From an uncultured Clostridia bacterium (GTDB taxonomy: Bacteria; Bacillota; Clostridia; Christensenellales; Aristaeellaceae), in assembly GCA_947166385.1 (NCBI GenBank), contig CAMVEB010000004.1, forward strand, positions 124,001-188,000: a stretch of 64,000 bases of DNA, in the 5' to 3' direction. Made by a program: the position numbers and the translations under genes. Shown here piece after piece: positions 1-58,771 of the stretch (the stretch's first letter is position 1; each line of letters begins with the position of its first letter). A model generated the notes under the pieces. That model made no database searches. It was given only the letters and a program-made list of their open reading frames with translations, and had not been told where the DNA came from.

Positions 1-444
1 TGCAGTATTCTGATCGGAAATCAAACCGCTGAGAATATAAAAAAAGATCTTGCAACCGCATTGCCGCTTGAAGAGTCCCGATCCATCATCGTTCGCGGAA
101 TTAACCAGCTTAACACTTCGGCCGGTACTGTTTCTTTTTCTTCCTCTCAGGCATATGACGCTGTCAAAGGTCCATGCGCTGCCATCGTAAAGGCAGTTCG
201 CTGGGTTCTGGAAAGAACTCCTCCTGAACTCGCTGCTGATATAATGCGCGGCGGAATCCATTTAACCGGCGATGGTGCTCGGTTATTTGCTTTGGATCGT
301 TATATTTCAGAGAATATCGGAATTCCCGTTCTTCTTGCCCGCGATCCGGGAGATTGTTGTATTCTCGGTGTTGGATACCTGACTGAAAACATTCAGCTTG
401 TCTCACCTCAGAACAAGCGCTCTTCGAAACCTACGTTTGCCTGA
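1..444 (+). CDS. mreB: Rod shape-determining protein MreB, C-terminal part (5' truncated by window edge)
   Basis: The frame is open from base 1, so the gene begins outside the window; 147 residues are visible. Seen: the ERTPPELAADIM segment and the following LTGDGA segment, which match the C-terminal actin-fold region of MreB. MreB forms membrane-associated filaments that organise lateral wall synthesis. The adenosine-side loop, usually GGGA-like in MreB, reads GDGA here. mreC follows after 24 bases, starting the standard mreBCD order. Identification as MreB rather than the paralogue Mbl rests mainly on this context. Confidence 0.9.
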   Translation, partial: CSILIGNQTAENIKKDLATALPLEESRSIIVRGINQLNTSAGTVSFSSSQAYDAVKGPCAAIVKAVRWVLERTPPELAADIMRGGIHLTGDGARLFALDRYISENIGIPVLLARDPGDCCILGVGYLTENIQLVSPQNKRSSKPTFA

Positions 445-13538: not shown

Positions 13539-14588
13539 TTACTGACCTTCCGGTACCAGTGTACAGACATAGATCATGTCGCTTTGGGGTCTTTCCTTCC
13601 CGCCGGGGGAAGCGCGGTATATTTCATCATGGAATACGATTTCCGCGCTGCCGCCGCCGTCAAGGTTAAAAGCCTGCTGACATCCGATTTTCCCCATCAT
13701 ATCGGCAAGCTGCTGATGATTGACACCCGTTTTACCGTCCCGGTCAGTGGCAGCGGCCAAAACAAACACATAGCTTAATTCACCGGTCTGCCCAATCGCT
13801 GCCCGCGGTTCTCTTCCGTTCCGGTTGTATCCATAGTCGCGTTCTTCCATATTCTGAACAACACCGTCAATCACCAGCCCCGGACCGAATGTGAACGCAT
13901 TGACAACGTTCCCTTCATATATGTATACCCATTGTTCCCTGTTCTTGATTTTTTGCTTTTCAAAAACACCCTGTGAATTCCTGAAAATATGGAAATCTCC
14001 CTTGTCATCGATCAGGAGCATATCCTTTAAACCGTTCCCGTCCTTCCGGATTTCCTTCCCCATCCGGACTTCATAGGTGGTTTTCTTTGGGTCGTTATAA
14101 AGATAGTCGCCGTTTATGGCAATAATCGCATGGTTCTTTTTCGCCATGCTGCTGACGGTAGCGGCTTTTTTTGAAAACGCCGTACGAAGCTGGGATGGAC
14201 TGCTCAGCTGAATTCTGGCAATAACCCATCTTACCTGTTCCTCTTCAATCTCCTCCAGGGTAACCCGAATGGTGGAATCCTCGTATCCTTCCTCTGAATA
14301 ATTTGACTCTGCTCCCTGAGGAGGAATAACAAAATCATCCAGCGGGAGTTCCCATTCCGCAGGGGCAGGATCCAGCCCCTCATTTTGCGGGACGGCTTCC
14401 ACTTCCACTTCGCCTTCCGCATATGCCTTGCCAAAGAACAGGGATCCGATATCACCATAGGATTCATCGGAAAACTGGATCCCATCCTGCACTTCCGGGA
14501 GCATCACAGGAGACGAAACCACGAAAGGAATCCCGGCGATCAGAAGCACGCAAATCAGAATCAGAAAAACCCGGGTCATCTTGTTCAT
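13539..14588 (-). CDS. Phosphodiester glycosidase family protein (NAGPA domain), exported
   Basis: The 349-residue protein has an N-terminal signal/anchor (about residues 5-25). The C-terminal NAGPA/DUF2233-type domain is marked by AIIAINGDYLYN and NLDGGGSAEIVF. Family members cleave N-acetylglucosamine phosphodiesters or act on wall polymers outside the cell; the bacterial substrate is mostly unknown. The ATG at 14588 is supported by an AAGGAGA site; earlier in-frame codons lie inside the upstream gene. It precedes the Lgt-like gene on the same strand by 15 bases. Confidence 0.85.
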   Translation of the reverse strand: MNKMTRVFLILICVLLIAGIPFVVSSPVMLPEVQDGIQFSDESYGDIGSLFFGKAYAEGEVEVEAVPQNEGLDPAPAEWELPLDDFVIPPQGAESNYSEEGYEDSTIRVTLEEIEEEQVRWVIARIQLSSPSQLRTAFSKKAATVSSMAKKNHAIIAINGDYLYNDPKKTTYEVRMGKEIRKDGNGLKDMLLIDDKGDFHIFRNSQGVFEKQKIKNREQWVYIYEGNVVNAFTFGPGLVIDGVVQNMEERDYGYNRNGREPRAAIGQTGELSYVFVLAAATDRDGKTGVNHQQLADMMGKIGCQQAFNLDGGGSAEIVFHDEIYRASPGGKERPQSDMIYVCTLVPEGQ

Positions 14589-14604
14589 GAAGACTGTCTC
14601 CTTT

Positions 14605-14919
14605 TTATTCTTCTTCATCTTCAGCCAAACGGGTGTTGGCAATCTCAATCAGTTTCTCTGCCAGTTCTTCATCTTCGACCAGAATGAACTCCTCGTCTTC
14701 TTCGCCCTCTTCACTTTCAACTGTCTCAACTTTGCATACAATGCACTCTTCGCCTTGATCATCAGCTTCCTGGCCGACTTCAGTCAGCAGGGCATATTCG
14801 TCTCCGTTGTAGAAGAAATAATCCCGAACGGTAAATTCGTACTCATTTCCGTCCTCATCCTCAAATATGATCGTGTCAGGCTCCATCCCTTCGAATGCGT
14901 TCTTTTCCATTTCGTCCAT
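14605..14919 (-). CDS. DUF1292 family acidic protein
   Basis: A 104-residue, strongly acidic protein (many Glu and Asp). The DUF1292 pattern is visible: a IIFEDEDGNEYEF segment followed by YALLTEV. These small proteins are widespread in Firmicutes and have no established function. It is 16 bases upstream of the NAGPA-domain gene on the same strand and is preceded by a near-consensus promoter at 14990-15018. Confidence 0.85.
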   Translation of the reverse strand: MDEMEKNAFEGMEPDTIIFEDEDGNEYEFTVRDYFFYNGDEYALLTEVGQEADDQGEECIVCKVETVESEEGEEDEEFILVEDEELAEKLIEIANTRLAEDEEE

Positions 14920-14989
14920 GTTTCAATCCTTCTTTCTTGATTAATCCGTGTAATGCATCTGATGTGCATGACAATCTTTACAAAAGGAA

Positions 14990-15018
14990 ATTATAATCAA
15001 TCCGCTTTTCTTTGGCAA
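14990..15018 (-). promoter_or_regulatory. Sigma-A type promoter, minus strand
   Basis: Read on the minus strand: TTGCCA (15018-15013), a 17-base spacer and TATAAT (14995-14990). It points toward the DUF1292 gene, leaving a leader of about 65 bases, and may drive the whole run down to 9920. Confidence 0.75.
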
Positions 15019-15044
15019 GTTGACTTTCCGGTTTTATCGTTCTA

Positions 15045-15263
15045 TCATTGTACCGGCGGTTTTTCTTTTTTCTTCAGCGGATGTCTGCTTCCGTCTTTTT
15101 CCTGAACAACGATGCTGTCAAGCATGGCCTTCAGGTTGTTCCTGTATTCGTCCAGGTATTCCTTCCTGAGCTGTGCCTGTTCGGTTTGTTCTTCCTGGTT
15201 GAGTCCGCATGTTTTCTTTTTTCTCGCCAGTTCATTGATCCGGTCGATTTTTTTTGCGTCCAT
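15045..15263 (-). CDS. DUF896 family protein (YnzC-like)
   Basis: A 72-residue helical protein with the family pattern: KIDRINELARKKK, then LTxEEx-like GLNQEEQTEQ, then LRKEYLDEYRNNLKAML. B. subtilis YnzC is a structurally solved two-helix protein of unclear role. The ATG at 15263 is supported by an AGGAGCCTC site; a longer frame upstream is not supported because it runs into the divergent acetyltransferase gene. Confidence 0.85.
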   Translation of the reverse strand: MDAKKIDRINELARKKKTCGLNQEEQTEQAQLRKEYLDEYRNNLKAMLDSIVVQEKDGSRHPLKKKEKPPVQ

Positions 15264-15310
15264 TTGATTTTGAGGCTCCTTTGTAATCAGTCTGTTTGGG
15301 AGGTTATAGG

Positions 15311-15763
15311 ATGGTACAAGGCAAATGGTTTTCTCCCGGGGAAACACTGACCGCTGATGTTCTGTCAGTTCGCTCCTCTGTTTTCGGCGCCAGCGGAAAC
15401 AATTCAGACCCGGAAGCCTGGAATGCCCTGGTATACCTGGATGACCGGCCGGTTGCAACCGGCCGCATCTGGTGGAGTGATAATGCATTCTGGCTGGGGG
15501 GGATCGGTGTCCTTCCGCCGGACCGCGGGCAGCATCTGGGGGATCTTGTGCTTCGTCTTCTGCTGTATAAAGCCCAGTCCCATTTTGCGCGCGAAGTCCG
15601 GCTCCGCTGCCCTCTCGAAACTGAAGGCTTTTTCTCGCGTCTTGGGTTTCAGTCCGTCAGCCGTACGCCCTCCGGTCATGTTGAAATGGCGCTTGCCGGT
15701 CATGATATATCTCTCGATTCCTGCCATCACTGCAAAAAGCAGGATTGCCCGAATCGGAAATAG
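15311..15763 (+). CDS. GNAT-family N-acetyltransferase with Cys/His-rich C-terminus
   Basis: A 150-residue protein. The central part (about residues 45-105) has a GNAT acetyl-CoA binding pattern: LGGIGVLPPDRGQHLGDLVLRLLL, a variant of V-x-P-x-x-R-x-x-G-x-G. The C-terminus ends in a CHHC...C cluster (about 138-146), which could bind metal. The start is supported by a GGGAGG site. The substrate is unknown. The gene is divergent from the DUF896 gene and convergent with the next gene, with one base between stops. Confidence 0.78.
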   Translation: MVQGKWFSPGETLTADVLSVRSSVFGASGNNSDPEAWNALVYLDDRPVATGRIWWSDNAFWLGGIGVLPPDRGQHLGDLVLRLLLYKAQSHFAREVRLRCPLETEGFFSRLGFQSVSRTPSGHVEMALAGHDISLDSCHHCKKQDCPNRK

Positions 15764-15764
15764 C

Positions 15765-16475
15765 TTATTCCCTGCTGTCCTTTCCTGCCAGCAGGCTGAT
15801 AATCGCCATCAGCATACCGCACCCCAGAACCAGCATAAAATCCCCGATCTCACTGCCAACTGTAAAAACATGGTTGCTGTTGAGAATGATCGCAATCCCG
15901 CATCCTGCAGCAGTCACGGATTCCGCTATAATCGTTGCAGTGCTGTTTTCCGTTGCCCGTTTTTTCCGGATCGTCCAGATCGTAAAACATCCTGCAGCCA
16001 GAAGGTAAAAAATCACAGGCATCACACGCAAATCGCCAGCTGAAATCAGCGGATACCTCCTGAGTTGCTCTGTAACGCACCGGATCGTTCCCCACAGGCA
16101 GATAACGGAAAGAAACAGGTCTCCGTTGCCTGGAATTTCTTCCTTTCGTGCCGCCAGCCAGATAATGATTCCCGAAAAGCACGCTAACGCGCATCCTGCT
16201 TCGATTCTGCACGGGAAGAACAGAGATCCGTCTGTAAAAAAGGGAACAGCAGACAGAGGCTCTATCAGAGGTGTTCCTTCTGAAAGATACATGTTCTGTT
16301 CAAAGATTTTCCATACGGCAATGCCCGGCAGCAGTCCGAATCCGATATGATTCATCAGTTCTCCGAATTTGATCGGACGGGATCGTTTTCGCTGATGAAT
16401 CAGGCGAACTGCGGAAAAAAGAATCCAGACCAGAAGGGACAGACCGCCTCCGATGATTGCTGCAGTGCTATCCAT
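15765..16475 (-). CDS. Polytopic membrane protein of unknown function, weakly Lgt-like
   Basis: About 236 residues with six to seven hydrophobic segments. A segment around residues 130-155 (GDLFLSVICLWGTIRCVTEQLR) resembles the late Lgt region that ends in an Arg-containing helix. No glycine signature equal to the Lgt core is evident, so the relation is tentative. The ATG at 16475 overlaps the end of the glycosyltransferase-GtrA gene by 8 bases, indicating co-translation with it. Confidence 0.6.
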   Translation of the reverse strand: MDSTAAIIGGGLSLLVWILFSAVRLIHQRKRSRPIKFGELMNHIGFGLLPGIAVWKIFEQNMYLSEGTPLIEPLSAVPFFTDGSLFFPCRIEAGCALACFSGIIIWLAARKEEIPGNGDLFLSVICLWGTIRCVTEQLRRYPLISAGDLRVMPVIFYLLAAGCFTIWTIRKKRATENSTATIIAESVTAAGCGIAIILNSNHVFTVGSEIGDFMLVLGCGMLMAIISLLAGKDSRE

Positions 16476-17574
16476 CTCTTCTTTCCTCCCTGAACACCCA
16501 CCGTTGCTGTATTCTGTAGCTGGCAAAATACAGTAAGGTATCCATCAGGATTTTTGCAAGCCAGCTGACCATACCCGCTTTCCCAAGCGCCCAGACCCCG
16601 AAATTGGATACGGTAATAATCAGCACACATAATACAACGTATCTCAGCAATGCATTCCCTGCATTCCCTTTCAGCTGGAAAACAAATTTCCTGTTCAGTT
16701 GGAAGTTCAGGATAGCGCTGAGAACACGGGCGGAATATCCGCTCAGGTTGATATTGCTGAGCGTTCCCTTCGCAACTCCGACTGCCGGAAAAAGCCATTC
16801 CCGGAACACCAGAGCAAGCGCCTGGTCAACCGCAAAGCAGATGAGCGAAGATGACATAAATTTGATAAATCCGCCGAGAATTACTTTGTAAATCCGGTAA
16901 CTGTCACGAATCGGATGAAAATGTGTGCCCTCGTTCCCGTTTTCATATACGGTCTCAATCGTAACAGGAATCATGGGGATATCATGCGTTGCGCAGGCGA
17001 TCAGGACCCGCATCTCGTATTCATAGCGTTCCCCGTTGACTTCCAGCATGAAAGGCAGCTCTTCTTTCCGGAAAGCCCGAAGCCCGGTTTGTGTATCCGG
17101 CAGCCATACACCGTACAGCAGTTTGAAAACCGTGGAGGTGATTTTATTCCCGCTTTTCGATTTCGGCGGAACATGAGGCAGATTGAAATCGCGGCTTCCG
17201 AGATACAGAGCCCTTTTACCGTTCTGGATCATTTCAGCCAGATGAATGCAGTCAGGCACCGTGTGCTGTCCGTCCGCGTCTGCGGTAATCACTCCGCGAA
17301 TGCCGGGTGCCTGATCAAGAAGATATCGGTATCCCGTTTTTAAGGCCACGCCTTTTCCGTGATTCACGTCATGATGCAGCACGACAGTCCTGTCCGTTTT
17401 CTCCACTGTCCGGAAAATTTCCTGGTAGTCTTCTCCGCTTCCGTCATCCACCACAACAATCATTCCGAACCCGTTTTCGGATAATTGTTGAATATACGCG
17501 GGAAGCCTCTCATCCGGTTCCAGAGAAGGAATCAATATGGCAACCTGGCTGACTGCGGTATTTGCTTCTGACAT
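16468..17574 (-). CDS. Family 2 glycosyltransferase fused to a GtrA-like membrane domain
   Basis: About 368 residues. The N-terminal GT-A domain (about 8-220) shows ILIPSLEPDE, VVDDGSGEDY and the DADGQH metal-binding motif. The C-terminal part (about 235-365) has four membrane segments of the GtrA type. Such fusions transfer or flip polyprenyl-phosphate-linked sugars for envelope glycosylation, as in DPMS/GtrA proteins; the sugar is not determinable here. ATG at 17574 fits an AGGGAGA site better than 17583. Confidence 0.85.
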   Translation of the reverse strand: MSEANTAVSQVAILIPSLEPDERLPAYIQQLSENGFGMIVVVDDGSGEDYQEIFRTVEKTDRTVVLHHDVNHGKGVALKTGYRYLLDQAPGIRGVITADADGQHTVPDCIHLAEMIQNGKRALYLGSRDFNLPHVPPKSKSGNKITSTVFKLLYGVWLPDTQTGLRAFRKEELPFMLEVNGERYEYEMRVLIACATHDIPMIPVTIETVYENGNEGTHFHPIRDSYRIYKVILGGFIKFMSSSLICFAVDQALALVFREWLFPAVGVAKGTLSNINLSGYSARVLSAILNFQLNRKFVFQLKGNAGNALLRYVVLCVLIITVSNFGVWALGKAGMVSWLAKILMDTLLYFASYRIQQRWVFREERRDG

Positions 17575-47265: not shown

Positions 47266-48622
47266 TGTTTTCTTCCTCGCTTTCCCCGCAGGCCCATGGC
47301 AGCTCGCCGCGCCATTGCAGCCGTATGTTCCTGTTCCCCGCGTTCCATGCCGGCACAGCGCCGGCGCCGACGCCGGCAACCAGCAGCACTTCGTTTCCCC
47401 GGCAAAGCAGCGGAATCTCGTCCCGCCAGATTTCTTCAATCTTCCGGTCTGTCAGGTAATCCTGCAGTTTCCGGCTGCCGTCCATCCCGAAGGGACGGAT
47501 CCGGTCTCCCGGCCTCCGGGTGCGGAGGACGCATCCTTCGGTGAATTCCTCCGGAACCTCCTGGATCCTTTTCCCGTCTCCCGGGTTTCCTTCCGAGGGT
47601 CCGGTCGTCATCGCGTACTGCCCGAACCGGATTTCCCCGCTCTGGTAGGCCGTCTCTTCCGGTGTTTCCCGCCGGATGCCGGTCAGGTGGATATATCCCC
47701 GGCTTCTTTCGGCGTATGTTTCTCCGGGCAGGTTCACTTTTCCCCGTTCTTTCCGGATCAGGGCGGCTAGCGCCTCGGTCTGCGCCGCGCTCAGCCCGCG
47801 CTCCTCCCGTTTCGGCCCGTTCTCTTTCCACCAGGCCCGCAGCACCCGTTTCTGCATCGGTTCCGGCAGTTGTGCCAGGGCCCCGGTCCTGATCCGGTTT
47901 GCCGTGCTGTGGATCCCGAGGAATGTTTCCGCTTCTTCCTGCAGCATCCTGTTCTCTTCCGACAGGATGGCCGCGGTCCTTGCGATCCTTTCCGCCGCGC
48001 CGGGGGCCATTTCCGCCATCAGCGGAATCAGCCGCATCCGGACTTCATTGCGCAGATAATACGGACTTTGGTTTGTTTTGTCTTCCCGCCAGCCGTATCC
48101 GTCCTGCCGGAGCGCTTCCCGGATTTCCGTCCGTCCCGTACCCAACAGAGGCCGCCGGATGGTGTATCCGTTCCGCTGATCGTTTTCGCTCATGCAGTCC
48201 AGGCCTTCCAGCCCGCTTCCCCGCATCAGCCGCATCAGGAAGGTCTCCGCCAGATCGTCCCGGTTGTGGGCCAGCACCAGCGTCCGGACGCCGGTCTCCT
48301 CCATCCGGTCCTCAAAAGCCCGGAAACGGGCTTCGCGGCAGGCGTTTTCGTCCTTCCGTCCGTCCAGCCGTACCCGGACCGTGTGGAAGGGAATCCGCAG
48401 CTCCCGGCAGACTTCCCGGCAGAACGCTTCGTCCCGGTCCGCGTCTTCCCCGCGGATCCCGTGGTTCACGTGGATCGCCTCCGGCCGGGTTTCTCCGTCT
48501 TCCCGGGCCATCGCGGCCAGTCGGATCAGCGCGGTGCTGTCCGCCCCGCCGGAAAACCCGATCAGGCATCGGCCTTCCGGCAGTTTCCCGGCTTTCTGCC
48601 GCAGTGCTTCCAGCCCGGTCAT
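47249..48622 (-). CDS. tilS: tRNA(Ile)-lysidine synthetase
   Basis: A 457-residue enzyme that converts the wobble C34 of the AUA-reading tRNA-Ile to lysidine. The N-terminal PP-loop ATPase shows LIGFSGGADSTALIRLA, and HVNHGIRGEDADRDEAFCR and LAHNRDDLAETFLMRL follow. The C-terminal substrate-binding domains (about 240-455) include the TilS C-terminal block RPGDRIRPFGMDGSRKLQDYL. Its start shares one base with the upstream stop codon (TAATG). Confidence 0.95.
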   Translation of the reverse strand: MTGLEALRQKAGKLPEGRCLIGFSGGADSTALIRLAAMAREDGETRPEAIHVNHGIRGEDADRDEAFCREVCRELRIPFHTVRVRLDGRKDENACREARFRAFEDRMEETGVRTLVLAHNRDDLAETFLMRLMRGSGLEGLDCMSENDQRNGYTIRRPLLGTGRTEIREALRQDGYGWREDKTNQSPYYLRNEVRMRLIPLMAEMAPGAAERIARTAAILSEENRMLQEEAETFLGIHSTANRIRTGALAQLPEPMQKRVLRAWWKENGPKREERGLSAAQTEALAALIRKERGKVNLPGETYAERSRGYIHLTGIRRETPEETAYQSGEIRFGQYAMTTGPSEGNPGDGKRIQEVPEEFTEGCVLRTRRPGDRIRPFGMDGSRKLQDYLTDRKIEEIWRDEIPLLCRGNEVLLVAGVGAGAVPAWNAGNRNIRLQWRGELPWACGESEEENNGERL

Positions 48623-50274
48623 TACTGCTCCCGCAGCGGTGCGCCGCAGACGTTGCAGGGTTTCAGGTTGCTGTACGGAGCCACGTTGATCTCCGCGTAG
48701 GTGAATTGCCCCTGCAGCGGGGTGTACTTCTCGTTGATGATCTTGCAGTAGGGATCCAGGTGGTAGTACTCCCCGTTCTTCGGGTTATAGTACAGCAGCG
48801 TGCTGGGATAAACAGCCGGGGTGGGCGTCGGCGTCGGCGCCTCGGTCACGTTGGGGTCCGGCGTCTCGACTTCTTCATACGTCTGCAGGCTCTGCGGATC
48901 GATGAACCACTCGTTGTTTTCCTTCACCATCAGGATCGTCAGGCGGTAGATTTCCGCGGGTTTCCCGTTGTTCCGGTCGATCTTCGATACCACGGTCACC
49001 CTTCGGCTGGTGTCCGCGTCTGTCCCGGAGACGCTTTCGATCGTGCAGTCTTTCGGGGTCCGGTTGGCCAGCAGGCCGAACAGGCTGTACCGCGGGTTTT
49101 CCATTTTGCTCTGCCAGCTGGGAGAGCACAGTGTCAGCATCTCATCCTGCCGGTTTCCGCTCCAGTAGGTGAAGAAGGTCACCAGCCTCTCCCGGATCGA
49201 GGTGTCCGCGGCGCTCGGGGTTTCCTGGGCGGCCGGCGGCACGTTTGTCACCAGCGCGATCTCCCCCGCGGGCTGCCCGCCCGTGCTGTCGCTCCCCTGG
49301 TCGGGTTCCGCGGTCACGGCCGCGCCGGCCTGTCGGGTCGGATCGCCCGTGGAATTGCTGTCCGGTTTTTTGAGGATGAAACTCACCGCCGTCAGCAGGC
49401 ACAGCGCCAGCGCGATAATCGTGAAGGTCAGCCGTTTGTTGTTGGCCACCAGCGGTTTGACCCACAGCAGGCCGGTCGCCGCCGCGGCCAGGAGCAGGAA
49501 CGCGCCTTTCAGGATCGGGTTTTTCAGGATCAGCACCGCCGCGACAAATAAGGCGATCAGCGCCGCCCCGATCAGGATCAGATGCACGTCGTTGAACCGG
49601 AAGGGCTGCTTGCGGACGGGAACCCGCTGCGGCACATATCCGCCGCCGTTCAGCGGAACCTGCTGCTGCGGCTGCTGCGGCTGCTGGTATCCCGTTTGGT
49701 ATCCTGTCTGGTATCCGGTCTGATATCCGGTCTGGTATCCGGTCTGGTATCCTGTTTGCTGCGGGGGTTGCTGAGCCTGTCCCTGGGGTGGGGTGTACCT
49801 GCCCATCTGGTTGTATGCGTTGTACCCCTGCTGGTATCCGGTGGGTGCCTGGTATCCCTGGCTGGAATACCCGGGGCTGTAGGGAGTCTGGGGAATAAAG
49901 CTGCCTCCGCTTGGATTCTGTCCCGGCGGATTGGCGTATCCGCTCACCGGCGCGTTCGGGTCCGGATATCCGGCAACCGGCTGCGCCTGAAACTGGTATC
50001 CGCCGTAGCCTGATGTCGTATTGGGTCTGGAAGCGTATCCGTTCTCATTCTGTCCGACAATGACCTGCGGGGTGGTATATCCTCGGCTCTGCGGAGTCTG
50101 GTATCCCGTCTGGTAGCCGTTCTGGGGAGCGAACTGCGGATTGTATCCCGGATATCCGCCTGTATTCTGCTGCCTTCCCGGCATCCCCTGCGGCCCGGTT
50201 TCTCCGCCCGGCCAGCCCTGGTTCGGCTGTCCGTACCCGTTATTGCTCTGGTTAAAATAACCGTTTTGATTCAT
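48622..50274 (-). CDS. Membrane protein with Gly/Tyr/Gln-rich repetitive N-terminus and Cys-rich C-terminus, unknown
   Basis: A 550-residue protein. Residues about 1-210 are rich in Gly, Tyr, Gln, Asn and Pro, including tandem GYQT units. Three membrane segments follow (about 232-305), then a Ser/Thr/Gly-rich linker, a domain of about 100 residues with ESVSGTDADTSRRVTVVSK, and a Pro/Thr linker. The C-terminus reads YYHLDPYC...LKPCNVCGAP, a small Cys motif like those at the end of secreted nucleases. No overall family is recognised. It is the first gene of the tilS-hpt-ftsH operon and has its own promoter. Confidence 0.75.
   Translation of the reverse strand: MNQNGYFNQSNNGYGQPNQGWPGGETGPQGMPGRQQNTGGYPGYNPQFAPQNGYQTGYQTPQSRGYTTPQVIVGQNENGYASRPNTTSGYGGYQFQAQPVAGYPDPNAPVSGYANPPGQNPSGGSFIPQTPYSPGYSSQGYQAPTGYQQGYNAYNQMGRYTPPQGQAQQPPQQTGYQTGYQTGYQTGYQTGYQTGYQQPQQPQQQVPLNGGGYVPQRVPVRKQPFRFNDVHLILIGAALIALFVAAVLILKNPILKGAFLLLAAAATGLLWVKPLVANNKRLTFTIIALALCLLTAVSFILKKPDSNSTGDPTRQAGAAVTAEPDQGSDSTGGQPAGEIALVTNVPPAAQETPSAADTSIRERLVTFFTYWSGNRQDEMLTLCSPSWQSKMENPRYSLFGLLANRTPKDCTIESVSGTDADTSRRVTVVSKIDRNNGKPAEIYRLTILMVKENNEWFIDPQSLQTYEEVETPDPNVTEAPTPTPTPAVYPSTLLYYNPKNGEYYHLDPYCKIINEKYTPLQGQFTYAEINVAPYSNLKPCNVCGAPLREQ
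49688..49759. repeat. Six tandem 12-base units encoding GYQT repeats
   Basis: Six copies of a 12-base unit, consensus TATCCGGTCTGG with a few substitutions, lie in the N-terminal coding region of the gene at 48622-50274. The unit keeps the reading frame, so copy-number change would lengthen or shorten the GYQT array without a frameshift. Confidence 0.9.
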
Positions 50275-50455: not shown

Positions 50456-51874
50456 GTGTCTTCCCGGACTCGTTCGATGCATCAGACGAAGTCGGATCTT
50501 CTCATCGGATTAATGGCCGTCTCTCTTTATTTTCTGTTGGGCATGTCTTTTTTTTGGTGTCTTTCCATCAATAACTTTTTCCTCCGCGTGGTGAACCGTA
50601 CCCTGGCGACCACGCTGCTGACCTATTTTGCCATGTCCTGTGCCATGCACGCCGTCTACGGCGGCTTCGATGTCGGCCGCAAGAAGTCAAAGCCCGTCAT
50701 CTCCGCCATGATTGCCGGCACGGTCATTACCGACGCCGTCACCTATCTCCAGCTGGAGATCATGAACGTCAATGAGCATAACAACGCCACGCTGAAGCTC
50801 TGGGGTCCCGATCTGCTGCTCCTGCTTCTCTGTATTCTGATCCAGACGGTGATCATCATCCTCTTCGTCCGCTTCGGCAATCAGCTGTATTTCCATTTTC
50901 ATCCCCCCCGCAGCTGCCTGATTATTCTCGGTTCCCCCTCCCAGGAGGAGGATATCCGCGCGAAGATCAGCCGCTACCGCCTCCAGTGGCGCGTGGATGA
51001 CGCCGTTCTTTATAATGTGCCGGATCTGATGCAGCGGATCGACCGGGCGGATGTGGTCTTCATCGGCCAGGTCCCCGAGGATGTGAAGTTTCCTCTCCTG
51101 AAGATGTGCTATGATGACCGGAAGGACGTGATGTCCAAGGCCCAGCTGCAGGATATCATGCTCTGCAACGCCCGTCCCACCGTCGTGGATGACGCGGCCT
51201 TCCTCGCCATGGAGTATAACAAGACGACGATTTTCCAGCGGGCGATCAAGCGCGTCAGCGATATCGTGATCTCTCTCCTGGCCATGGTTCTCTTCTCCCC
51301 GTTTATCCTGATCATTTCAATCATGATCCGGCTGGAGGACGGGGGGCCGGTCATTTTCCGCCAGGCCCGGCTGACGGCTGACGGCCGGACCTTCACCATC
51401 CGCAAGTTCCGCACCATGGTTCCGCAAAGCGGGACCGAGGAGGTGCAGACCTCCATCACCGTGGATGATCCGCGGATCACCCGGGTCGGCGCTTTCCTGC
51501 GCCGCTTCCGTCTCGATGAGATTCCCCAGTTTTTCAATATTCTGATCGGGGATATGTCCCTCGTCGGCCCCCGGCCCGAGATGATGGCGAACGTTGCCCG
51601 CTACAAGATGGAGCTTCCCGCCTTCATTTACCGGGAAAAGATGAAAGCCGGCCTCACGGGATACGCCCAGATTGAGGGCCGCTACAACACCTCAGCCGAG
51701 GATAAGCTGATGCTGGATATGATGTATATCGAGTCCTTTTCCATCTGGCTGGATGTCAAGCTTCTGCTGCGGACGTTTACCGTCCTGGCCCGCAAAGATT
51801 CTACCCAGGGCTTTACAACCGCCCCGGATAAGATAATGCCCATAAATATTGCGAAGGAGAATGGAAAAAAATGA
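50456..51874 (+). CDS. Polyprenyl-phosphate sugar-phosphate transferase (WcaJ/exopolysaccharide type)
   Basis: A 472-residue protein with about four N-terminal membrane segments (about 15-135) and a middle nucleotide-fold-like region. The C-terminal bacterial sugar transferase domain (about 265-455) has IKRVSDIVISLLAMVLFSPF, GPVIFRQARLT and KFRTMV, then FLRRFRLDEIPQFFNIL and SLVGPRPE. It loads the first sugar phosphate onto undecaprenyl phosphate for polysaccharide or glycan synthesis. The start is GTG at 50456 with GGGAGGG upstream. It overlaps the next gene by ATGA. Confidence 0.9.
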   Translation: MSSRTRSMHQTKSDLLIGLMAVSLYFLLGMSFFWCLSINNFFLRVVNRTLATTLLTYFAMSCAMHAVYGGFDVGRKKSKPVISAMIAGTVITDAVTYLQLEIMNVNEHNNATLKLWGPDLLLLLLCILIQTVIIILFVRFGNQLYFHFHPPRSCLIILGSPSQEEDIRAKISRYRLQWRVDDAVLYNVPDLMQRIDRADVVFIGQVPEDVKFPLLKMCYDDRKDVMSKAQLQDIMLCNARPTVVDDAAFLAMEYNKTTIFQRAIKRVSDIVISLLAMVLFSPFILIISIMIRLEDGGPVIFRQARLTADGRTFTIRKFRTMVPQSGTEEVQTSITVDDPRITRVGAFLRRFRLDEIPQFFNILIGDMSLVGPRPEMMANVARYKMELPAFIYREKMKAGLTGYAQIEGRYNTSAEDKLMLDMMYIESFSIWLDVKLLLRTFTVLARKDSTQGFTTAPDKIMPINIAKENGKK

Positions 51875-52776
51875 ACACAACGCTTCTGATCATGGCTGCA
51901 GGTCTCGGTTCCCGTTACGGTGGCAACAAACAGATTGACCGGATCGGCCCGAACGGGGAAATCCTGATGGAGTATTCCGTTTATGACGCGATGGAAGCCG
52001 GTTTCGATAAGGTGGTTTTCGTCATCCGCAGGAGCATGGATACGCTCTTCCGCGAGATGATCGGCGATAAGATTGCCAAAAAGGTGGAAGTGCACTACGC
52101 CTACCAGGAGTTTGATTCCCTGCCCGGCGGTTTCGTTCCCCCGGCGGACCGGACCAAGCCCTACGGCACCGTCCATGCCGTCATGTGCGCGAAGGATCTG
52201 ATCCACGAGCCCTTCGCCGTCATCAACGCCGATGACTATTACGGCAAGGATGCTTTCGTGGCCATGGCCGCCTCCCTGAAGCGTCTCCGCACCGCGGAGA
52301 ATATGGCGTCCATGGTCGCCTATTATCTGAAGAATACCGTCTCCAGGAACGGTCATGTCTCCCGCGGCATCTGCGCCACGGATGATAACGGTCATCTGGT
52401 CAAGGTGGTCGAGACTTACAGCATCCTGCCCTTCCCGGATGGCACCATCCGCGATATCCATGATAATCCCGAAGGCGTCATTCTCGATCCCAACGCCCTC
52501 GTCTCCATGAATATGTGGGGGTTCGCGCCCTCCTTCTTCGAGGTCGGCACGGCCTATCTGAAGGATTTCCTCGCGGATACTTCCGGGGATCCCCTGAAGA
52601 AGGAGTGCCTCCTGCCCTCCCTGGTCGATGTCCTGATGCACACCGCCGGCCTGAAGGTCGAAGTGCTCTCCACGGATGCCGTCTGGTTCGGCGTGACTTA
52701 TAAGGAAGACAAGGCCTATGTCACCGCCGAGCTGAAGAAGCTGCATGACAGCGGCAGCTATCCGCCCGCCCTGTAA
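51871..52776 (+). CDS. Sugar nucleotidyltransferase-like protein
   Basis: A 301-residue GT-A fold nucleotidyltransferase. Seen: the signature MAAGLGSRYGGNKQ near residue 8 and VINADDYYGKDAF with the metal-binding Asp near residue 112. Family members activate sugars by NTP transfer to sugar phosphates; the sugar is not determinable. Overlap with the sugar transferase gene suggests it supplies that pathway. The next gene starts nine bases later. Confidence 0.85.
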   Translation: MNTTLLIMAAGLGSRYGGNKQIDRIGPNGEILMEYSVYDAMEAGFDKVVFVIRRSMDTLFREMIGDKIAKKVEVHYAYQEFDSLPGGFVPPADRTKPYGTVHAVMCAKDLIHEPFAVINADDYYGKDAFVAMAASLKRLRTAENMASMVAYYLKNTVSRNGHVSRGICATDDNGHLVKVVETYSILPFPDGTIRDIHDNPEGVILDPNALVSMNMWGFAPSFFEVGTAYLKDFLADTSGDPLKKECLLPSLVDVLMHTAGLKVEVLSTDAVWFGVTYKEDKAYVTAELKKLHDSGSYPPAL

Positions 52777-52785
52777 GGCGCCCGG

Positions 52786-55700
52786 ATGATGAGCAGTGAA
52801 TCTTCCCGGCTTCTCTGCATCGGTTCCTATCCGGATTCCCTGCTGCCGACAGCGCTGACAGTCCTCGCCTGCGGAGCGGTTTCGCCCCTGGGCAGCGCGG
52901 ATGCGCTGGATGTTTTCCGGATTTTGCCGAAATCCGATGCGGAGGATGCTGTCCTTTCCGTCGCGAAGGATTATTCCGCCTGTCCTTTCTTTTTCAAATC
53001 CGCCTTTGCCGTTTCTTCCTGGGTTCCCGTTATGCCGGAGCTCCGGGATCTGGTTTCGGATGCGCAGACGGAGGCCCTGCTTTCCGCCCTGCGCGGAAAG
53101 GGTATGCCCCTGTCTTTCCGCACGGACCGGGAAGCGGTGGAATGGGCCTTTTCCCTGCTGCTGGGCCAGCCGGACCGGCCTGCTTCCGCGCCCTTCTTTT
53201 CCTGGCTGTCCGGCCTGCAGGCGCTGATGGCCCGGGGACAGGAGATTCGCCTCACGGTGCTGGCGGATCCGGCGGACGCCTTTTCCGCCGGCATCGCTTT
53301 CGCCCTGCTGCATCATCTGCGCACGCTTGCCGCCGGCAGTCCGCTGTTCGTTTCCCTCGTGCTGGTTTCGCCCCCCGCTTCCCGTCTCCCGGAGTCGGCC
53401 GCTTCGCTGCGGGCCACCCTGGAGTCCCTGCGGGTCCGTTCCCCCGGGGATGCGCTGTGGCTGCTTTCCCTGCCTTCTTCCGCGGCGGAGACGGATTCGG
53501 CCGATCAGATCGTCGCCTTTGCCGTTGCGGAAGTGATCAGTGAAATCCACGCGCGGGAAGCGCTGCCTTCGCCCGGTTTTCATGGGAAGGAGACGGACGG
53601 AACCCTGACCTTCCGTTCCCTGGGGGATCATGCCGCGCCTTTTGCGGCTTTCCTGTCTTCGGCCCTGCTTCTCCTGACGGATGTCCTTCCCGCCCTCCGG
53701 GATTATCTGAAGCATCCCGGTGCGGGTCTTCGCGCCATCTCCCGGAGTTCCCGCCGGAGCCTCTGCCGTGCCCTGCTTGCGGGCGAGCCAGGCCCGGACC
53801 GGGCGGAGCAGACGGTCTCCGCCCTGGATCGGGCGCTGAAAACCTTCCTGACCCGGCTGCTGTTTTTCCTGCGGTCGCTTCCGTTTTCCCTGCGCCTCTC
53901 CGCGGAGACGGCGAACCTCTGGCAGGAAGCCGTCGCCGCCTGCGGCCGGTATATCACGGTCGCCGCCGAGTATGATACAACCACCGCCGAGGTGCATGAG
54001 ACCGGCCTGGATGCTGTCCGCCCGGTCCATCGGGACACCCTGGATGATACGGATGAGGAGCAGCTCCTGCGCCGCCTGGAGGATATGAAAAAGCAGCTGG
54101 ACGACGAGTCCGCCGCCCGGGATCGTGCTTTTTCCGTTCTGGGCGGTCTGCGTGCCCTCCAGGTCCGGCTGGACTGCCTGACCCGCTGCCGCGCCGCGCT
54201 GGCCGATACCGAGGAAAAGCTTTCCGCTCCCCGGGAGGATACCGAGCGCCTGACGCTGCTGAAGAGGGAGCGCCGCGTCCGTCTTCTCTCGGCCGCCATC
54301 TCCCGTTGCGAGTCCGAGCTCGCGCCGGAAGCCGTCCGCGCTTCCGTGGCCCGTCTTTCGTCAAAGCCGCCGGAGGCCGATGCGGATCCCTATGCCGGCG
54401 TCATCCTTTCGGAGGAAACCTGCCATTTTCTGGAGGGGCTGCTTTCCCGTCCGGATCCGGCCAGGCCGGATCATGTTCCGCTTCTTTTCCCGGATTCCCC
54501 TTCCTTCACGCTGAAATCGCTCCAGAAGCAGCTCACCGCCTCCGTTTCTCCGGAGGAAGCCCGCGGCCTGACGCTCACCGATTATTTCTCCCGGGTTTAT
54601 GCCTGCTGCCTGGCCGCCGTCTCTTCCCTGGAGTTTCCCTCCCGGGGGGAGATGCCCGCCCTGCCGCTCCTGCCGGATCTGCTTCCGCTGTCCCCTCCCG
54701 CCTCGGTGGAGGATCTCCTGGTGCTCCTTCCGCCCCCGCGGACGCCGGAGTCGGATCGTTCGGAGCTCCGCGGCCTCCTGTCCATGCTGCTCCTGCGCCA
54801 GTACCGGCGCCGCGCAGCAGAGGAGGCCGCGCTGACGGTCACCCCCTGTACGCCGGATGCCTCCCCCGTGCTTCGCTTCTGGCTCGCCTCCCGCGGGGCG
54901 GATCAGGTCTCGGTGCTGTCCCTGTCCTCTCCGGAGGGGGCCGCCTGTCCCTTTGCGCTCTTCCTGCCCGGCCGGGGGATCCTGCCCGCCTGGCGCGGCC
55001 AGGATCACGCGAAGCTCATTCCTTCGTTCGTCACCTGGTATGATGCCGATACGGATACCTTTGCCGATCCCGTCTCCCATCTCAGCGATGCCGACAGCCG
55101 CCTGCTCGCGGAGAGGCTGCGGTCTTTCCTGGCCGCCCTGGGAGAGGAGGCCGATCCGGTGCTCATGTCTTTTCTCCGGGATTTCCTCGGCGATCTGTCC
55201 GCCGGTTCCGTTCCCGTCCCGGATCAGAATCAGCTGAAAACCCGGCTCCTCGCCGTCTGCGGCCTGCTGCCGCTGCCGGCGTATGAGCCTGTTCTCTCCG
55301 CGCGGACCACGGTCTATGAGCATGCGCTCTCCCTCGATCCGGTCGGCGCCTGCCTGACCGGGGATCCCGGTTTCCCGGCCGCTTCCTGCGCGGATTTCAC
55401 CGGGGAGGTCTGCTATTGCTGGAAGGACATCCCCTTTGCCCGCTCCCATCCGCGCTTCCTGCTGGACAGCACCCACGCCGCCCAGGAAGCCTATGTCCTC
55501 TCCCGTCTGGCGGAGGAGTGCGCCGCGCTGTCCGGGGCTTCCGATGATTATCAGGATGCGCTTTCCCGCGAACTGAAGGGGATTCTGGACCGCTGTCCGG
55601 ATGCGCAGCCGGAGTGCCGTTCCCTGGCCCTTTCCCTCCTGGACAAGGCAAATAAACCCATCACCGGCCGGGATCCGTCCTTTACCTGGCCCTGGGACCC

Positions 55701-58014
55701 GCTGTCCCCCGCCATGCGCACGATCCTCCACGAGTCCCTCGGCGATCAGCTGGCCGCTCTGGCGCTGGATCCTTTTTCGGATCTCCTGGCGGTTGCTCCC
55801 GCCCGCGGCGAGGAAATCCTCGGGGATTCGATTCTTTCCGCCATGTGCCTGCTCCCGGCGGCCGATCCGCCCTCTGCTCCCGCTGCCGATCCGGCCGGGG
55901 ATCCGGAGCCGGATGCGGCGCCCGCCCCGGCGTCTGTCCCGGTGTCTGTCCCGGGATCTGTCCCGGGATCTGTCCCGATGGAAGCCGCCCCGGCGCCCGC
56001 GGTCCAGCCGGACGCGGTTCTCCCGCCGCTGTCGGCGGCCTTTGCCCGCGCCCTTTGCACCCTGGAGGAGGGCAAGACGCTGCTCCGCCCGGGTTTTCTC
56101 CGCTTCGAGCGCCTCTCAGGCGGCGCCTTCCGCGTTTCCCTGGTGCTGGATGGGGCTTTCCCGGTCCGTCTGGTCCGCAGGTATGCGGAGGAGGAAGTGG
56201 TCCGCCTCTACGCCCATGATATCCCGACAGTCGCGGTCTGGCCTTCCGTGCCCTTCCGCCCGGAGGAATGGCATGCCTATTTTGTCTATGCCCATCTCTC
56301 GGAGGGCTTTTCCCTCTCCGTCCTGCCGGAGGGCGGCTCCTTCGCGGATCTTCCGTCGGTTTCCCCCGGCCGTTTTTCCGCCTGCTATGAATCCTTCCCG
56401 CTCTGTATATCCCTCATGAAGGGGGATCAGACCCTCGGTGCCGTGCCGAATCTCCTGCCCCATCCGGATCTGACCCCCGCCGACCCCACCGTTGTCTGCC
56501 TGGATTTCGGCTCGTCCGCCGCTTCGGTCGTCTGTTCCTCCTCCGGCCGCCGCAGGCCGCTCCAGGGCCCGCCCATGATCCGCGCCCTGCTGGTGAATCC
56601 CGCCTCTTCCAGGGATCTGCTCCGCCGGGAGTTTCTCCCCGCGGTTCCTGTTTCGGCGCTTCTCCCGACGGTCTCGCGGATTTTCCGCAACGCGCCCGGG
56701 ACCCCGCCCGTTCCCTTTGTGGATGGGATCATCCTGATGTCCTCCTCCCTGGAGGATCTCCTCTCCACGCCTTCCGATGCCGTCTATACCTCCCTGAAGT
56801 GGGAGGAGGAGAAAGGCCGTTCCAATTTCCTCTGCCTCCATCAGGTGCTGCTGATGGCGGCCCTGCAGGCTCGTTCCGAGGGGGCCGCTTCCCTTTCCTT
56901 CCGTTTCTCCCTGCCGGATGAGATGGCCCGGGAAGGCCGGGAAAAGCTGATGAATCTCTTCCTCTCCCTGTCGGAGAAGGTGCTGCGGGAGAGCGGCTTC
57001 CCGTTCCAGCCGGAGGGGCTTCCGGTCCTCTTCTCTTCCGAGAGCGCTGCCCTCGGATCCTATTTCCGTTACTGCGCGCCCGAGGATACCCGCGGCGGCT
57101 TCATGGTGCTGGATCTGGGTTCCTGCACGGCGGATATCTCCCTCTTCCTTCGCGGCCGTCCCCAGGCGGTGCGCACCTGCCAGATCCCCCTGGGCGTTCA
57201 TTATATGTTCCTGCCCTCGCTCCTCCGCGATCCGGAGATGATTCTCCGCGAGTTCGGCGCCTGGCCGGAGGATTCCTTCCGCCGGGATCTGCTTCTGCTG
57301 ACGCAGGCGCTCTCCGCCGCCCGCACGGATCCGGCCGCCCTGCGCCGGGCCCGCGTCGCGCTGGATTTCTTCCTGTCGGATCATCTGCCCGCTCTCATCT
57401 CGGCCATGTCCCAGATGATTTCCCAGGGCGTCCCGACGCGCTTCGGCGCCCTCCTGCTCCTGCATTTTTCTTATCTGATGATGCTCTCCGGCCTCGTCCT
57501 TCTGCAGCTCGCTGCCGATCCCAGCCGCAATGATTTTCTCCCCGAGCAGATGACGCTCTGCATCGCCGGCCGCGGCGCCGTGCTGATGGAGGCGCTTCCC
57601 CCGGCGCTGAAGAAGTCCCTCTGGCATTTCCTGACGATGTTCCGCAATAAGCGCGTCGCCGCCCTCTCCCTCCTCTTCTCTTCCGAGAAAAAAATGGAGA
57701 TCCCCGTCGGTCTCTCCATGCTGGAGGAAGTATACGCTGCGCTCCCTCCCGCGGCGTCCGTCCCTGCGTCCATCGCCGTCCGTCCGGAGGAGCTCCTGCC
57801 GGAGTTCCTGCTCCGTTTCCTGCGGGAGTTCCCGTTCTCTGCCCAGCTGCTCTTCCCCGGGTTCTATACCGGTGATTATTATCATCCCTTCTCCCCCCTG
57901 GGAGAAAGCCTGATCGAGTCCTCCATCGCCCAGTCCTTCCCCCCGGCCGAAACCCCGCGTCCCTATGATTCCCTGTCCGCCTGGATCGGAAATCTCCTGG
58001 ATCTCCTGTCCTGA
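52786..58014 (+). CDS. Giant 1742-residue protein with C-terminal actin/Hsp70-type ATPase domain, otherwise unknown
   Basis: Residues 1-1020 are Leu/Ala/Ser-rich and of no family I can assign; about 417-525 look coiled-coil. A Pro/Ala/Asp linker spans about 1022-1082, with four VPGS-type repeats. Residues 1235-1620 show four motifs of the actin/Hsp70 fold in the right order: phosphate-1 LDFGSSAASV (Asp1240), connect-like SESAALGSYF (Glu1419), phosphate-2 LDLGSCTADISLF (Asp1443) and adenosine-like IAGRGAVLME (Gly1595). No signal peptide or membrane segment is evident, so it is probably cytoplasmic. It is the most GC-rich gene in the window. Either ATG at 52786 or 52789 may be the start. It follows the nucleotidyltransferase by nine bases. 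The ATPase call is moderate; overall function is unknown. Confidence 0.72.
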   Translation: MMSSESSRLLCIGSYPDSLLPTALTVLACGAVSPLGSADALDVFRILPKSDAEDAVLSVAKDYSACPFFFKSAFAVSSWVPVMPELRDLVSDAQTEALLSALRGKGMPLSFRTDREAVEWAFSLLLGQPDRPASAPFFSWLSGLQALMARGQEIRLTVLADPADAFSAGIAFALLHHLRTLAAGSPLFVSLVLVSPPASRLPESAASLRATLESLRVRSPGDALWLLSLPSSAAETDSADQIVAFAVAEVISEIHAREALPSPGFHGKETDGTLTFRSLGDHAAPFAAFLSSALLLLTDVLPALRDYLKHPGAGLRAISRSSRRSLCRALLAGEPGPDRAEQTVSALDRALKTFLTRLLFFLRSLPFSLRLSAETANLWQEAVAACGRYITVAAEYDTTTAEVHETGLDAVRPVHRDTLDDTDEEQLLRRLEDMKKQLDDESAARDRAFSVLGGLRALQVRLDCLTRCRAALADTEEKLSAPREDTERLTLLKRERRVRLLSAAISRCESELAPEAVRASVARLSSKPPEADADPYAGVILSEETCHFLEGLLSRPDPARPDHVPLLFPDSPSFTLKSLQKQLTASVSPEEARGLTLTDYFSRVYACCLAAVSSLEFPSRGEMPALPLLPDLLPLSPPASVEDLLVLLPPPRTPESDRSELRGLLSMLLLRQYRRRAAEEAALTVTPCTPDASPVLRFWLASRGADQVSVLSLSSPEGAACPFALFLPGRGILPAWRGQDHAKLIPSFVTWYDADTDTFADPVSHLSDADSRLLAERLRSFLAALGEEADPVLMSFLRDFLGDLSAGSVPVPDQNQLKTRLLAVCGLLPLPAYEPVLSARTTVYEHALSLDPVGACLTGDPGFPAASCADFTGEVCYCWKDIPFARSHPRFLLDSTHAAQEAYVLSRLAEECAALSGASDDYQDALSRELKGILDRCPDAQPECRSLALSLLDKANKPITGRDPSFTWPWDPLSPAMRTILHESLGDQLAALALDPFSDLLAVAPARGEEILGDSILSAMCLLPAADPPSAPAADPAGDPEPDAAPAPASVPVSVPGSVPGSVPMEAAPAPAVQPDAVLPPLSAAFARALCTLEEGKTLLRPGFLRFERLSGGAFRVSLVLDGAFPVRLVRRYAEEEVVRLYAHDIPTVAVWPSVPFRPEEWHAYFVYAHLSEGFSLSVLPEGGSFADLPSVSPGRFSACYESFPLCISLMKGDQTLGAVPNLLPHPDLTPADPTVVCLDFGSSAASVVCSSSGRRRPLQGPPMIRALLVNPASSRDLLRREFLPAVPVSALLPTVSRIFRNAPGTPPVPFVDGIILMSSSLEDLLSTPSDAVYTSLKWEEEKGRSNFLCLHQVLLMAALQARSEGAASLSFRFSLPDEMAREGREKLMNLFLSLSEKVLRESGFPFQPEGLPVLFSSESAALGSYFRYCAPEDTRGGFMVLDLGSCTADISLFLRGRPQAVRTCQIPLGVHYMFLPSLLRDPEMILREFGAWPEDSFRRDLLLLTQALSAARTDPAALRRARVALDFFLSDHLPALISAMSQMISQGVPTRFGALLLLHFSYLMMLSGLVLLQLAADPSRNDFLPEQMTLCIAGRGAVLMEALPPALKKSLWHFLTMFRNKRVAALSLLFSSEKKMEIPVGLSMLEEVYAALPPAASVPASIAVRPEELLPEFLLRFLREFPFSAQLLFPGFYTGDYYHPFSPLGESLIESSIAQSFPPAETPRPYDSLSAWIGNLLDLLS
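55933..55980. repeat. Four tandem 12-base units in the linker of the giant gene
   Basis: Four copies of a 12-base unit near TCTGTCCCGGGA encode the VPGS/VPVS repeats of the Pro-rich linker (about residues 1050-1065). The frame is kept. Confidence 0.85.
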
Positions 58015-58024
58015 AAGGAGCCGT

Positions 58025-58771
58025 ATGGAACAGATTTCTTCCCTCAAAAACCCCCGCGTCGCCGCCTGGCGTTCCCTGCAGGATCGGAAGGGCCGCCGGG
58101 AACAGGATGCCTTTCTGGTGGAGGGCGCCCGGATGGTGCGCGAGGCCCTCGCGTCGGATTTTGAGGTCCGCGCCCTGCTCGTCCGCGAGGGCTTTGATCC
58201 GTCTTTCCCCCTGCCCGCCGGCGTCCCGGCCTGGTCCCTGCCGGATCATGTCTTCGCGTCCGTTTCCGATACGCGCACGCCCCAGGGCATCGCGGCCGTG
58301 CTCTCCCGCCGTGTCCGGCCTCTCAGCGGTTCGCGCTTTGTCGCCCTCGATACCGTGCAGGATCCCGGCAATGTGGGCACGATCATCCGGACGGCGGATG
58401 CCGCCGGCCTTGACGGCGTGATTCTCTCCCCGGATTGTGCCGATCTCTTTTCGCCGAAGGTGCTCCGGTCAACCATGGGCAGCGTCTTCCGCATGACCTT
58501 TGCTTTCCCGCCGGATCTCCCGTCCTTCCTTCGCTCCTTCCGGGGCCGCGGTTTTTCCGTTCTCTCATCCCAGCTCGACGGCGATCCGTTCTATGATCGC
58601 CGGGAGGTCGCCCCCCGGTGGATCCTGGTCATCGGCAATGAAGGAAACGGCGTCTCCGGCCCGGTGATGGCAGAGGCGACGCACCGTCTCTGCCTCCCCA
58701 TGCGCGGAGGCGCCGAATCCCTGAACGCGGCCATCGCCGCCGGAATCATGATGTATGATTTATGCAGGTGA
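58025..58771 (+). CDS. TrmH/SpoU-family RNA 2'-O-methyltransferase
   Basis: A 248-residue SPOUT enzyme. The N-terminal substrate-binding domain (about 1-90) starts EQISSLKNPRVAAWRSL and has FLVEGARMVREAL. The knotted SAM-binding domain has DTVQDPGNVGTIIRTADAAG (motif 1), VIGNEGNGVS (motif 2) and LPMRGGAESLNAAIAAGI (motif 3). The RNA target (rRNA or tRNA) is not certain. The ATG at 58025 has an AAAGGAG site spanning the end of the giant gene. Its last 12 bases overlap the convergent oxidoreductase gene. Confidence 0.92.
   Translation: MEQISSLKNPRVAAWRSLQDRKGRREQDAFLVEGARMVREALASDFEVRALLVREGFDPSFPLPAGVPAWSLPDHVFASVSDTRTPQGIAAVLSRRVRPLSGSRFVALDTVQDPGNVGTIIRTADAAGLDGVILSPDCADLFSPKVLRSTMGSVFRMTFAFPPDLPSFLRSFRGRGFSVLSSQLDGDPFYDRREVAPRWILVIGNEGNGVSGPVMAEATHRLCLPMRGGAESLNAAIAAGIMMYDLCR

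Follow-up and report, generated by a model that had tools for sequence, protein, structure and literature searches.

The window analysed here is a 64,000-nucleotide stretch from an uncultured Clostridia bacterium (NCBI GenBank assembly GCA_947166385.1, contig CAMVEB010000004.1, positions 124,001 to 188,000 of the forward strand). It contains an open reading frame (ORF) at 52786-58014 of the + strand that encodes a protein of 1742 residues from an ATG. As judged from sequence profiles of its relatives, this protein is almost certainly an end-to-end fusion of two neighbouring genes, one for a tubulin/FtsZ-like protein, whose nucleotide loops are degenerate in the fusion, and one for an actin-like ATPase. 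Among the families tried, the ATPase appears nearest to MreB. The folds of tubulin and actin, both classic folds of the cytoskeleton, normally occur in separate proteins, and to our knowledge no natural protein containing both has been described. The open full-text literature, which leaves subscription papers mostly outside and holds no preprints, yielded neither a tubulin-actin fusion nor a cluster of this kind with an actin-like partner.

Matches to the fusion gene were found in 33 of the 37 same-genus genomes (its own included) among 61 genomes searched, some of them partial and in fragmented genomes. The one additional match (34 of 61 overall) was to genome G058, from another family in the same order, and was weak (expectation value, E, 2e-4). 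A single stop-free frame of 1716-1828 codons was present in 30 of 32 genus loci, a count that omits one fragment (L101), and contig ends cut the remaining two. Given these same-genus matches and the uninterrupted frame, the ORF is not a product of chance. Long antisense ORFs are also present at the gene; the conserved frame is that of the + strand. A scan of a second collection returned 33 loci labelled as uncultured or isolate Clostridia, Clostridiales or, in one case, Lachnospiraceae, and the named sources among them are animal gut or faeces. The single fusion protein had no significant match in Pfam, NCBIfam, PADLOC or PDB sequences, and its families are therefore visible only via profiles of relatives. 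The original prediction, made from sequence alone, stated that the 1,200 residues before the ATPase domain match no family known to its author. This is accurate for direct matches, but profiles place residues 1-620 with tubulin-like proteins and residues ~660-1020 with the extension of an actin-like partner.

The first clue to these modules was a 1268-residue protein of G058 with clear actin-type motifs. It is directly preceded by a gene whose tubulin-like product carries a GGTG loop and matches Tubulin_2 at E 0.003, under the cut-off. The same pair was found in two relatives of G058 (G061 and G063), in a genome of another class (G639), in one of the same class (G378), on three cyanobacterial plasmids (L120, L121 and L123; four of six plasmid records were read) and in one Prevotella record. 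On L121, from Picosynechococcus PCC 7003, the pair occupies 11989-13518 and 13585-16875. In total, tubulin-like and actin-like genes stand as separate neighbours in 28 loci, nine outside the window's family and 19 inside it. The tubulin-like gene comes before the actin-like gene at all nine loci outside the family and at all 19 fetched inside. Within the family, the actin-like protein was matched in 24 of 100 genomes, four from the same genus and 20 from others. Of the 20 non-genus loci, 19 were fetched, with G782 (E 9e-4) left out; 18 of the 19 pairs were identified by profile and one (G850) by eye. The actin-like gene of one family locus, G783 (L142), is broken by in-frame stop codons and looks like a broken copy.

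Outside the family, a small membrane-protein ORF directly precedes the tubulin-like gene in all nine loci, and a lipoprotein-like gene with a vWA-type D.[ST].SM motif lies near eight of them, in reversed orientation in Gloeothece. At the Prevotella locus the lipoprotein match is weak (E 0.005) and lacks the motif. Among those inspected, six outside-family loci have a coiled-coil protein with a membrane segment after the actin-like gene. On the three annotated plasmids the core genes are listed as hypothetical or unknown, except for one 'tubulin-like doman-containing protein' and one 'prefoldin domain-containing protein'. The cluster is rare in the phylum sample: the actin profile matched two of 398 genomes (own included) and the tubulin-like profile one of 398. 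A class-wide Tubulin_2 search matched 10 of 291 genomes, and of the ten regions, one per genome, that of G378 has the actin-like partner.

Residues 1 to ~620 of the fusion (52786..54645, + strand) align by profile with the unfused tubulin-like proteins. We assign them to the tubulin/FtsZ superfamily, with homology over the GTPase domain and the second domain. The match became decisive only once unfused relatives had been found inside the window's family: in hhalign, residues 1-620 matched nine GGTG-bearing tubulin-like proteins of that family at a probability of 99.5 (E 3.3e-22, 601 columns), nine unfused, mostly degenerate tubulin-like proteins at 99.9 (E 1.5e-34) and a wider 11-member set (A9) at 98.7 (E 4e-16). 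Profile comparison gave no alignment of the same residues to unfused actin-like proteins. Some of the unfused in-family proteins match both the tubulin-like profile and that of the fusion's N-terminal part, for example G812 (8e-77 and 8e-17). The earliest comparison of the N-terminal part, with four tubulin-like proteins, was merely suggestive (probability 72.8, E 3e-5); five- and nine-member sets gave probabilities of 24.6-71.7, varying with settings. Distant tubulin-like relatives gave E 3e-5 to 8e-4 and scores of 39-51. Sixty column shuffles per module and reversed profiles served as controls. For the N-terminal part, the 60 shuffled profiles scored at most 22.1 and the reversed profile 19.1, and nine unrelated genus families scored at most 24.6 on the same template and 26.7 with the fusion's N-terminal part as template.

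In an hmmsearch of 2715 ORFs plus named relatives, the N-terminal profile ranked the G058 tubulin-like protein top outside the genus (E 0.008); the reverse search, with a four-member tubulin-like profile, did not find the fusions (best E 3). By profile comparison, the tubulin-like set from outside the family matched seven Tubulin_2 proteins at a probability of 96.4 (E 1.3e-9), and the in-family set did so more weakly (85.4, E 6e-6). Pfam Tubulin_2 (PF13809) scored 17.1-25.3 bits on four single unfused proteins, under its cut-off of 27, and did not match the fusion.

The actin-like ATPase domain (residues ~1235-1645, 56488..57720, + strand) was delimited by profile alignment and motif columns. 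Four actin-type motifs had been read near residues 1240, 1419, 1443 and 1595, and all were confirmed: D1240 of phosphate 1 (CLDFGSS), E1419 (FSSES), D1443 of phosphate 2 (VLDLGSCTAD) and the adenosine motif G1595-R-G1597 (LCIAGRG). An MEIPVGLS segment lies within the same domain. The phosphate 1, phosphate 2 and adenosine motifs occur in the correct order in the 33 aligned fusion rows, and the two phosphate aspartates are 203 residues apart in the fusion, compared with 207-214 in nine unfused relatives. The C-terminal genus profile matched nine unfused actin-like proteins at a probability of 99.9 (E 3e-33 to 3e-34), and the unfused family in turn matched MreB at 96.9 (E 2e-10, 122 columns) in a profile comparison with four of 13 fetched MreB loci, the other nine having missed the motif filter. 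The significant profile match to a known actin family is obtained through the unfused family. By this route residues 1235-1645 can be placed in the actin/MreB superfamily, the direct match to MreB being weaker.

The region between the two domains (residues ~621-1234, 54646..56487, + strand) aligns by profile with the N-terminal extension of the unfused actin-like proteins, which covers ~550-680 residues before phosphate 1. Residues 600-1070 matched nine unfused actin-like relatives in hhalign (probability 89.6-92.0, E 1.9e-6 to 6.6e-7) and showed no alignment to tubulin-like proteins by profile comparison, and residues ~660-1020 matched the extension of 11 relatives at a probability of 98.7 (E 3.5e-16). 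The extension carries the motif RGLL..LLLRQYRRR at 662-676 and an F.DP...L...DR region at 759-771. A low-complexity Pro/Ala/Val linker (residues ~1022-1072, 55849..56001, + strand) falls within the same region and is partly missing in most genus orthologues (majority gap over 1042-1069 in 32 aligned rows). The C-terminal tail (residues ~1646-1742, 57721..58011, + strand) ends, in the genus consensus, in a conserved short hydrophobic segment, RPYDxLSAWIxxLLDL. By BLAST, residues 23-549 of the fusion align with a separate G822 protein at a pairwise E of 3e-13 (24% identity), the alignments with four unfused actin-like proteins begin at residues 614-731, and a look-alike start motif lies near residue 623 (MTFLPDEKDIELS / MPALPLLPDLLPLS). 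From these BLAST limits and look-alike starts, the two modules meet near residue 620 and together explain the entire protein.

The original prediction described an actin/Hsp70-type ATPase. Its actin half is supported by profiles; Hsp70 or chaperone is the weaker half of the guess, because Hsp70 is a poorer match to the relatives than actin and MreB chains are. In a PDB search, the profile of the unfused actin-like proteins reached actin and MreB chains at E 7e-6 to 6e-4, followed by chains of Hsp70, ParM and FtsA from E 0.003 upwards. A chaperone would be an actin- or Hsp70-like machine in which the actin domain cycles adenosine triphosphate (ATP), the first 620 residues bind clients and the tubulin likeness reflects nothing but distant ancestry. 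Such a role could draw on the Hsp70 chains in that search and on the lost tubulin nucleotide loops, which make a tubulin-type activity unlikely. However, actin and MreB chains score better, Pfam and NCBIfam revealed no Hsp70 substrate-binding domain, and just ~100 residues follow the ATPase domain. We regard a chaperone as unlikely and rank it below the tubulin-actin fusion reading.

The two halves of the fusion differ in the state of their nucleotide-binding motifs. In the tubulin-like half, both elements that bind guanosine triphosphate (GTP), the T4 loop (GGTG, ~residues 161-169) and the T1 glycines (~residues 12-18), are lost. GGTG is present in none of the 33 fusion rows aligned, one of which does not cover this stretch, and the region often reads D-L-x-D-P-F-x-A-G. 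In the actin-like half, the phosphate 1 aspartate and the first phosphate 2 aspartate are kept in all 33 fusion rows, and GRG in all 32 rows that reach that point. We infer that the fusion binds ATP and not GTP, and its ATP turnover is probably slow. Among the unfused proteins, GGTG is kept in all nine loci outside the family and in 10 of 18 examined inside it (lost in the other eight); it is also gone, by eye, from the nineteenth family locus, G850. Both loops are intact in 18 of the 28 unfused loci, and one or both are changed in 10. The G805 tubulin-like protein (L132:5887-7815) seems to have been caught half way between the two states: its T4 GGTG is kept, its T1 is changed, and it stands in a sugar-gene/TrmH setting without the small membrane-protein gene.

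The state of the loops coincides with the gene setting. The small membrane-protein ORF lies directly upstream in 18/18 intact-loop loci and 0/10 changed-loop loci (9/9 and 0/10 within the family), with 4.7 to 5.9 kilobases (kb) of upstream sequence at the changed-loop loci but only 486 bases in G842. This gene is our main marker. A lipoprotein-profile match lies near eight of the nine intact family loci, the contig of the ninth ending 1.7 kb upstream, and near none of the other 10, but most of these in-family matches are weak (E 5e-28 to 9e-4) and the D.[ST].SM motif is missing from them. Of the genes that flank the fusion in the window (sugar transferase, nucleotidyl transferase, TrmH), one or more occur at eight of the 10 changed-loop loci, the exceptions being G789 and G783, and none at the nine intact family loci, two of these lying on contigs shorter than 8 kb. 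In a tree of the actin domain that took 15 of the 33 fusion rows, these form one clade (100/100), whose sister group was not resolved. This pattern supports a single fusion event, within a lineage whose members have often lost the loops; the direct ancestor may already have lost them. The family holds a graded series, from intact loops with the membrane-protein gene, through changed loops without it, to the fusion, and this series can serve as a natural experiment on the possible change of a cytoskeletal GTPase to a scaffold.

The tubulin-like half could instead be a relic with no function of its own, tolerated through its joining to the actin-like gene. GGTG is lost, and across 28 genus rows the N-terminal half is less identical to the window protein (30-49%) than the C-terminal half (39-74%), both of which speak for a relic. 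Against this, 30 of 32 genus loci keep the full-length frame and contig ends truncate the other two, and certain motifs of the N-terminal half itself are invariant across 29 aligned rows (R103-G104, PVHR at 413-416, D421-T422 and E424-E425). GGTG-less versions also persist as separate genes in several genera. We consider a relic quite improbable.

For the fusion of a tubulin-like and an actin-like module we propose a mechanism, tentatively and with more doubt than confidence, in which an ATP-cycling actin module is joined to a non-catalytic tubulin scaffold at the envelope. Because they are fused here, the separate tubulin-like and actin-like proteins of other genomes would act as one complex, like FtsZ and FtsA (the Rosetta-stone argument). 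The actin-like part would bind and turn over ATP, driving assembly or shape change, and the tubulin-like part would be a pseudo-GTPase retained as an interface or scaffold. The fusion would then unite an FtsA/FtsZ-type pair in a single chain and act on the cytoplasmic side of the envelope. The envelope is the most likely site because intact-loop relatives have a small membrane-protein gene and usually a lipoprotein gene upstream and the fusion's neighbours are cell-surface sugar genes. Filament formation by the fusion is possible. Taken as one statement, anatomy and mechanism together are reasonably likely to hold.

Several observations weigh against this account. Both folds rest on profile evidence through intermediate relatives. 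The predicted link from the fusion to Tubulin_2/FtsZl1 in particular runs via such relatives: compared directly with FtsZl1/Tubulin_2, the N-terminal part scored 13.3, where unrelated MocA-type families reached 34.2 on the same template, and a PDB search with the tubulin-like profile A9 brought up neither tubulin nor FtsZ chains at E 1. For the actin-like half, the direct match of the fusion to MreB reached only a probability of 51.7 (E 1.5e-4, 105 columns), the C-terminal genus profile alone found no actin in the PDB, and a PF06723 search of the bacterium's own genome does not list the fusion. Pfam MreB was matched by one of five single unfused actin-like proteins (G639, 28.8 bits against a cut-off of 27), and the same place in G639 scored 24.9, under the cut-off, in a six-frame search. 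The central phosphate 2 glycine is replaced in 31 of 33 fusion rows, and ATP turnover could therefore be weak. In 11 genus genomes a separate tubulin-like protein was not found (E 0.1), and no match to the lipoprotein profile A6 extended past model position 104 of 622. The fusion thus apparently would work without the partners that suggested a membrane role. Weak A6 matches do occur in nine of the 11 genomes (best E per genome 7.8e-4 to 0.35), and the best of them, in G019, lacks the D.[ST].SM motif when read. A6 is likewise weak, and the motif likewise missing, at same-family loci that have the lipoprotein gene, so a diverged genus lipoprotein is possible.

A further alternative is that the cluster is a module of defence islands and the fusion an anti-phage or conflict component. 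Beside the G378 cluster, the two genes after the coiled-coil gene (L110:15499-17971) resemble Zorya ZorA and ZorB (PADLOC E 3e-11 and 5e-19), also hinting at a link of the cluster to MotA/OmpA-type membrane motors. The cluster copies on cyanobacterial plasmids would suit a defence role too. PADLOC, though, gave no match at E 1 for the fusion or for six G639 cluster proteins, and the gene's recurrent chromosomal setting in the genus and its presence in 33 of 37 genomes are unlike what is seen with patchy defence genes. No relative was found in a phage collection with the G378 tubulin-like protein as query, nor in viral contigs with profile A5. A defence role ranks, like a chaperone, below the fusion of cytoskeletal modules, and we think it improbable.

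The genes next to the fusion are housekeeping genes that tell little of its function; the sugar genes fit an envelope setting. Upstream, by Pfam, are a bacterial sugar transferase (50456-51874, + strand) and a nucleotidyl transferase (51871-52776, + strand); both are also found close to the fusion in many members of the genus and close to unfused pairs of other genera. Downstream is a SpoU/TrmH-type RNA methyltransferase (Pfam; 58025..58771, + strand, start inferred at MEQISSLKNP), which follows the fusion in 31 of 32 genus loci; in the remaining one the contig ends. galE lies near the fusion in 10 of 15 gaps inspected. A 550-residue protein without a Pfam match is encoded beside TilS (window 48622-50274, - strand), and 17 of 32 genus loci have a relative of it, at 36-56% identity, upstream of the fusion. 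An ordinary MreB gene crosses the left edge of the window (window 1-399, G000:C4:123431-124399), ~52 kb upstream of the fusion, and the contig carries a second MreB copy.

The closest described group is that of FtsZl1/Tubulin_2 proteins with vWA operons, which have been predicted to remodel membranes (Makarova and Koonin 2010, PMC2875224). The accessible part of that paper names vWA, GTPase, kinase and OmpA partners for FtsZl1 and mentions no actin-like one, and a later tubulin-family study, in the portion available, puts Tubulin_2 aside as divergent (PMC9871819). Like this group (PF13809), the unfused tubulin-like relatives match Tubulin_2, below the cut-off and by profile, and the unfused loci outside the family have a vWA-motif lipoprotein-like gene nearby (8/9) and a small membrane protein alongside (9/9). 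Unlike the FtsZl1 operons as far as the accessible text describes them, the actin-like gene follows the tubulin-like gene at once, and the two are fused in the window's genus.

With MreB and the bacterial actins (PF06723) the fusion shares three motifs, for phosphate 1, phosphate 2 and adenosine, and their order, and one of the five tested unfused relatives passes the family cut-off (28.8 bits against 27). The fusion is far longer than MreB and is not listed by PF06723, and separate ordinary MreB genes are present in the same genome.

FtsZ and FtsA are a tubulin-like ring protein and its actin-like membrane tether. As in that pair, tubulin- and actin-superfamily proteins have adjacent genes and, if the fusion is a guide, would act together. 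They are not orthologous to FtsZ and FtsA: neither the fusion nor the tested unfused proteins have an above-cut-off match to the FtsA or FtsZ families. Also unlike FtsZ-FtsA, the actin-like protein has an N-terminal extension of ~550-680 residues, and the tubulin half of the fusion is without GTP loops. The fusion is evidence from evolution that the cluster's tubulin-like and actin-like proteins work together where they are separate, and it makes testable what a set of unnamed genes does across phyla. More speculatively, and on balance we doubt it, the cluster may be a cross-phylum third tubulin and actin system beside FtsZ-FtsA and MreB, of which the gut-lineage fusion would assemble as a mixed tubulin-actin polymer driven only by ATP, with a pseudo-GTPase as its tubulin half.

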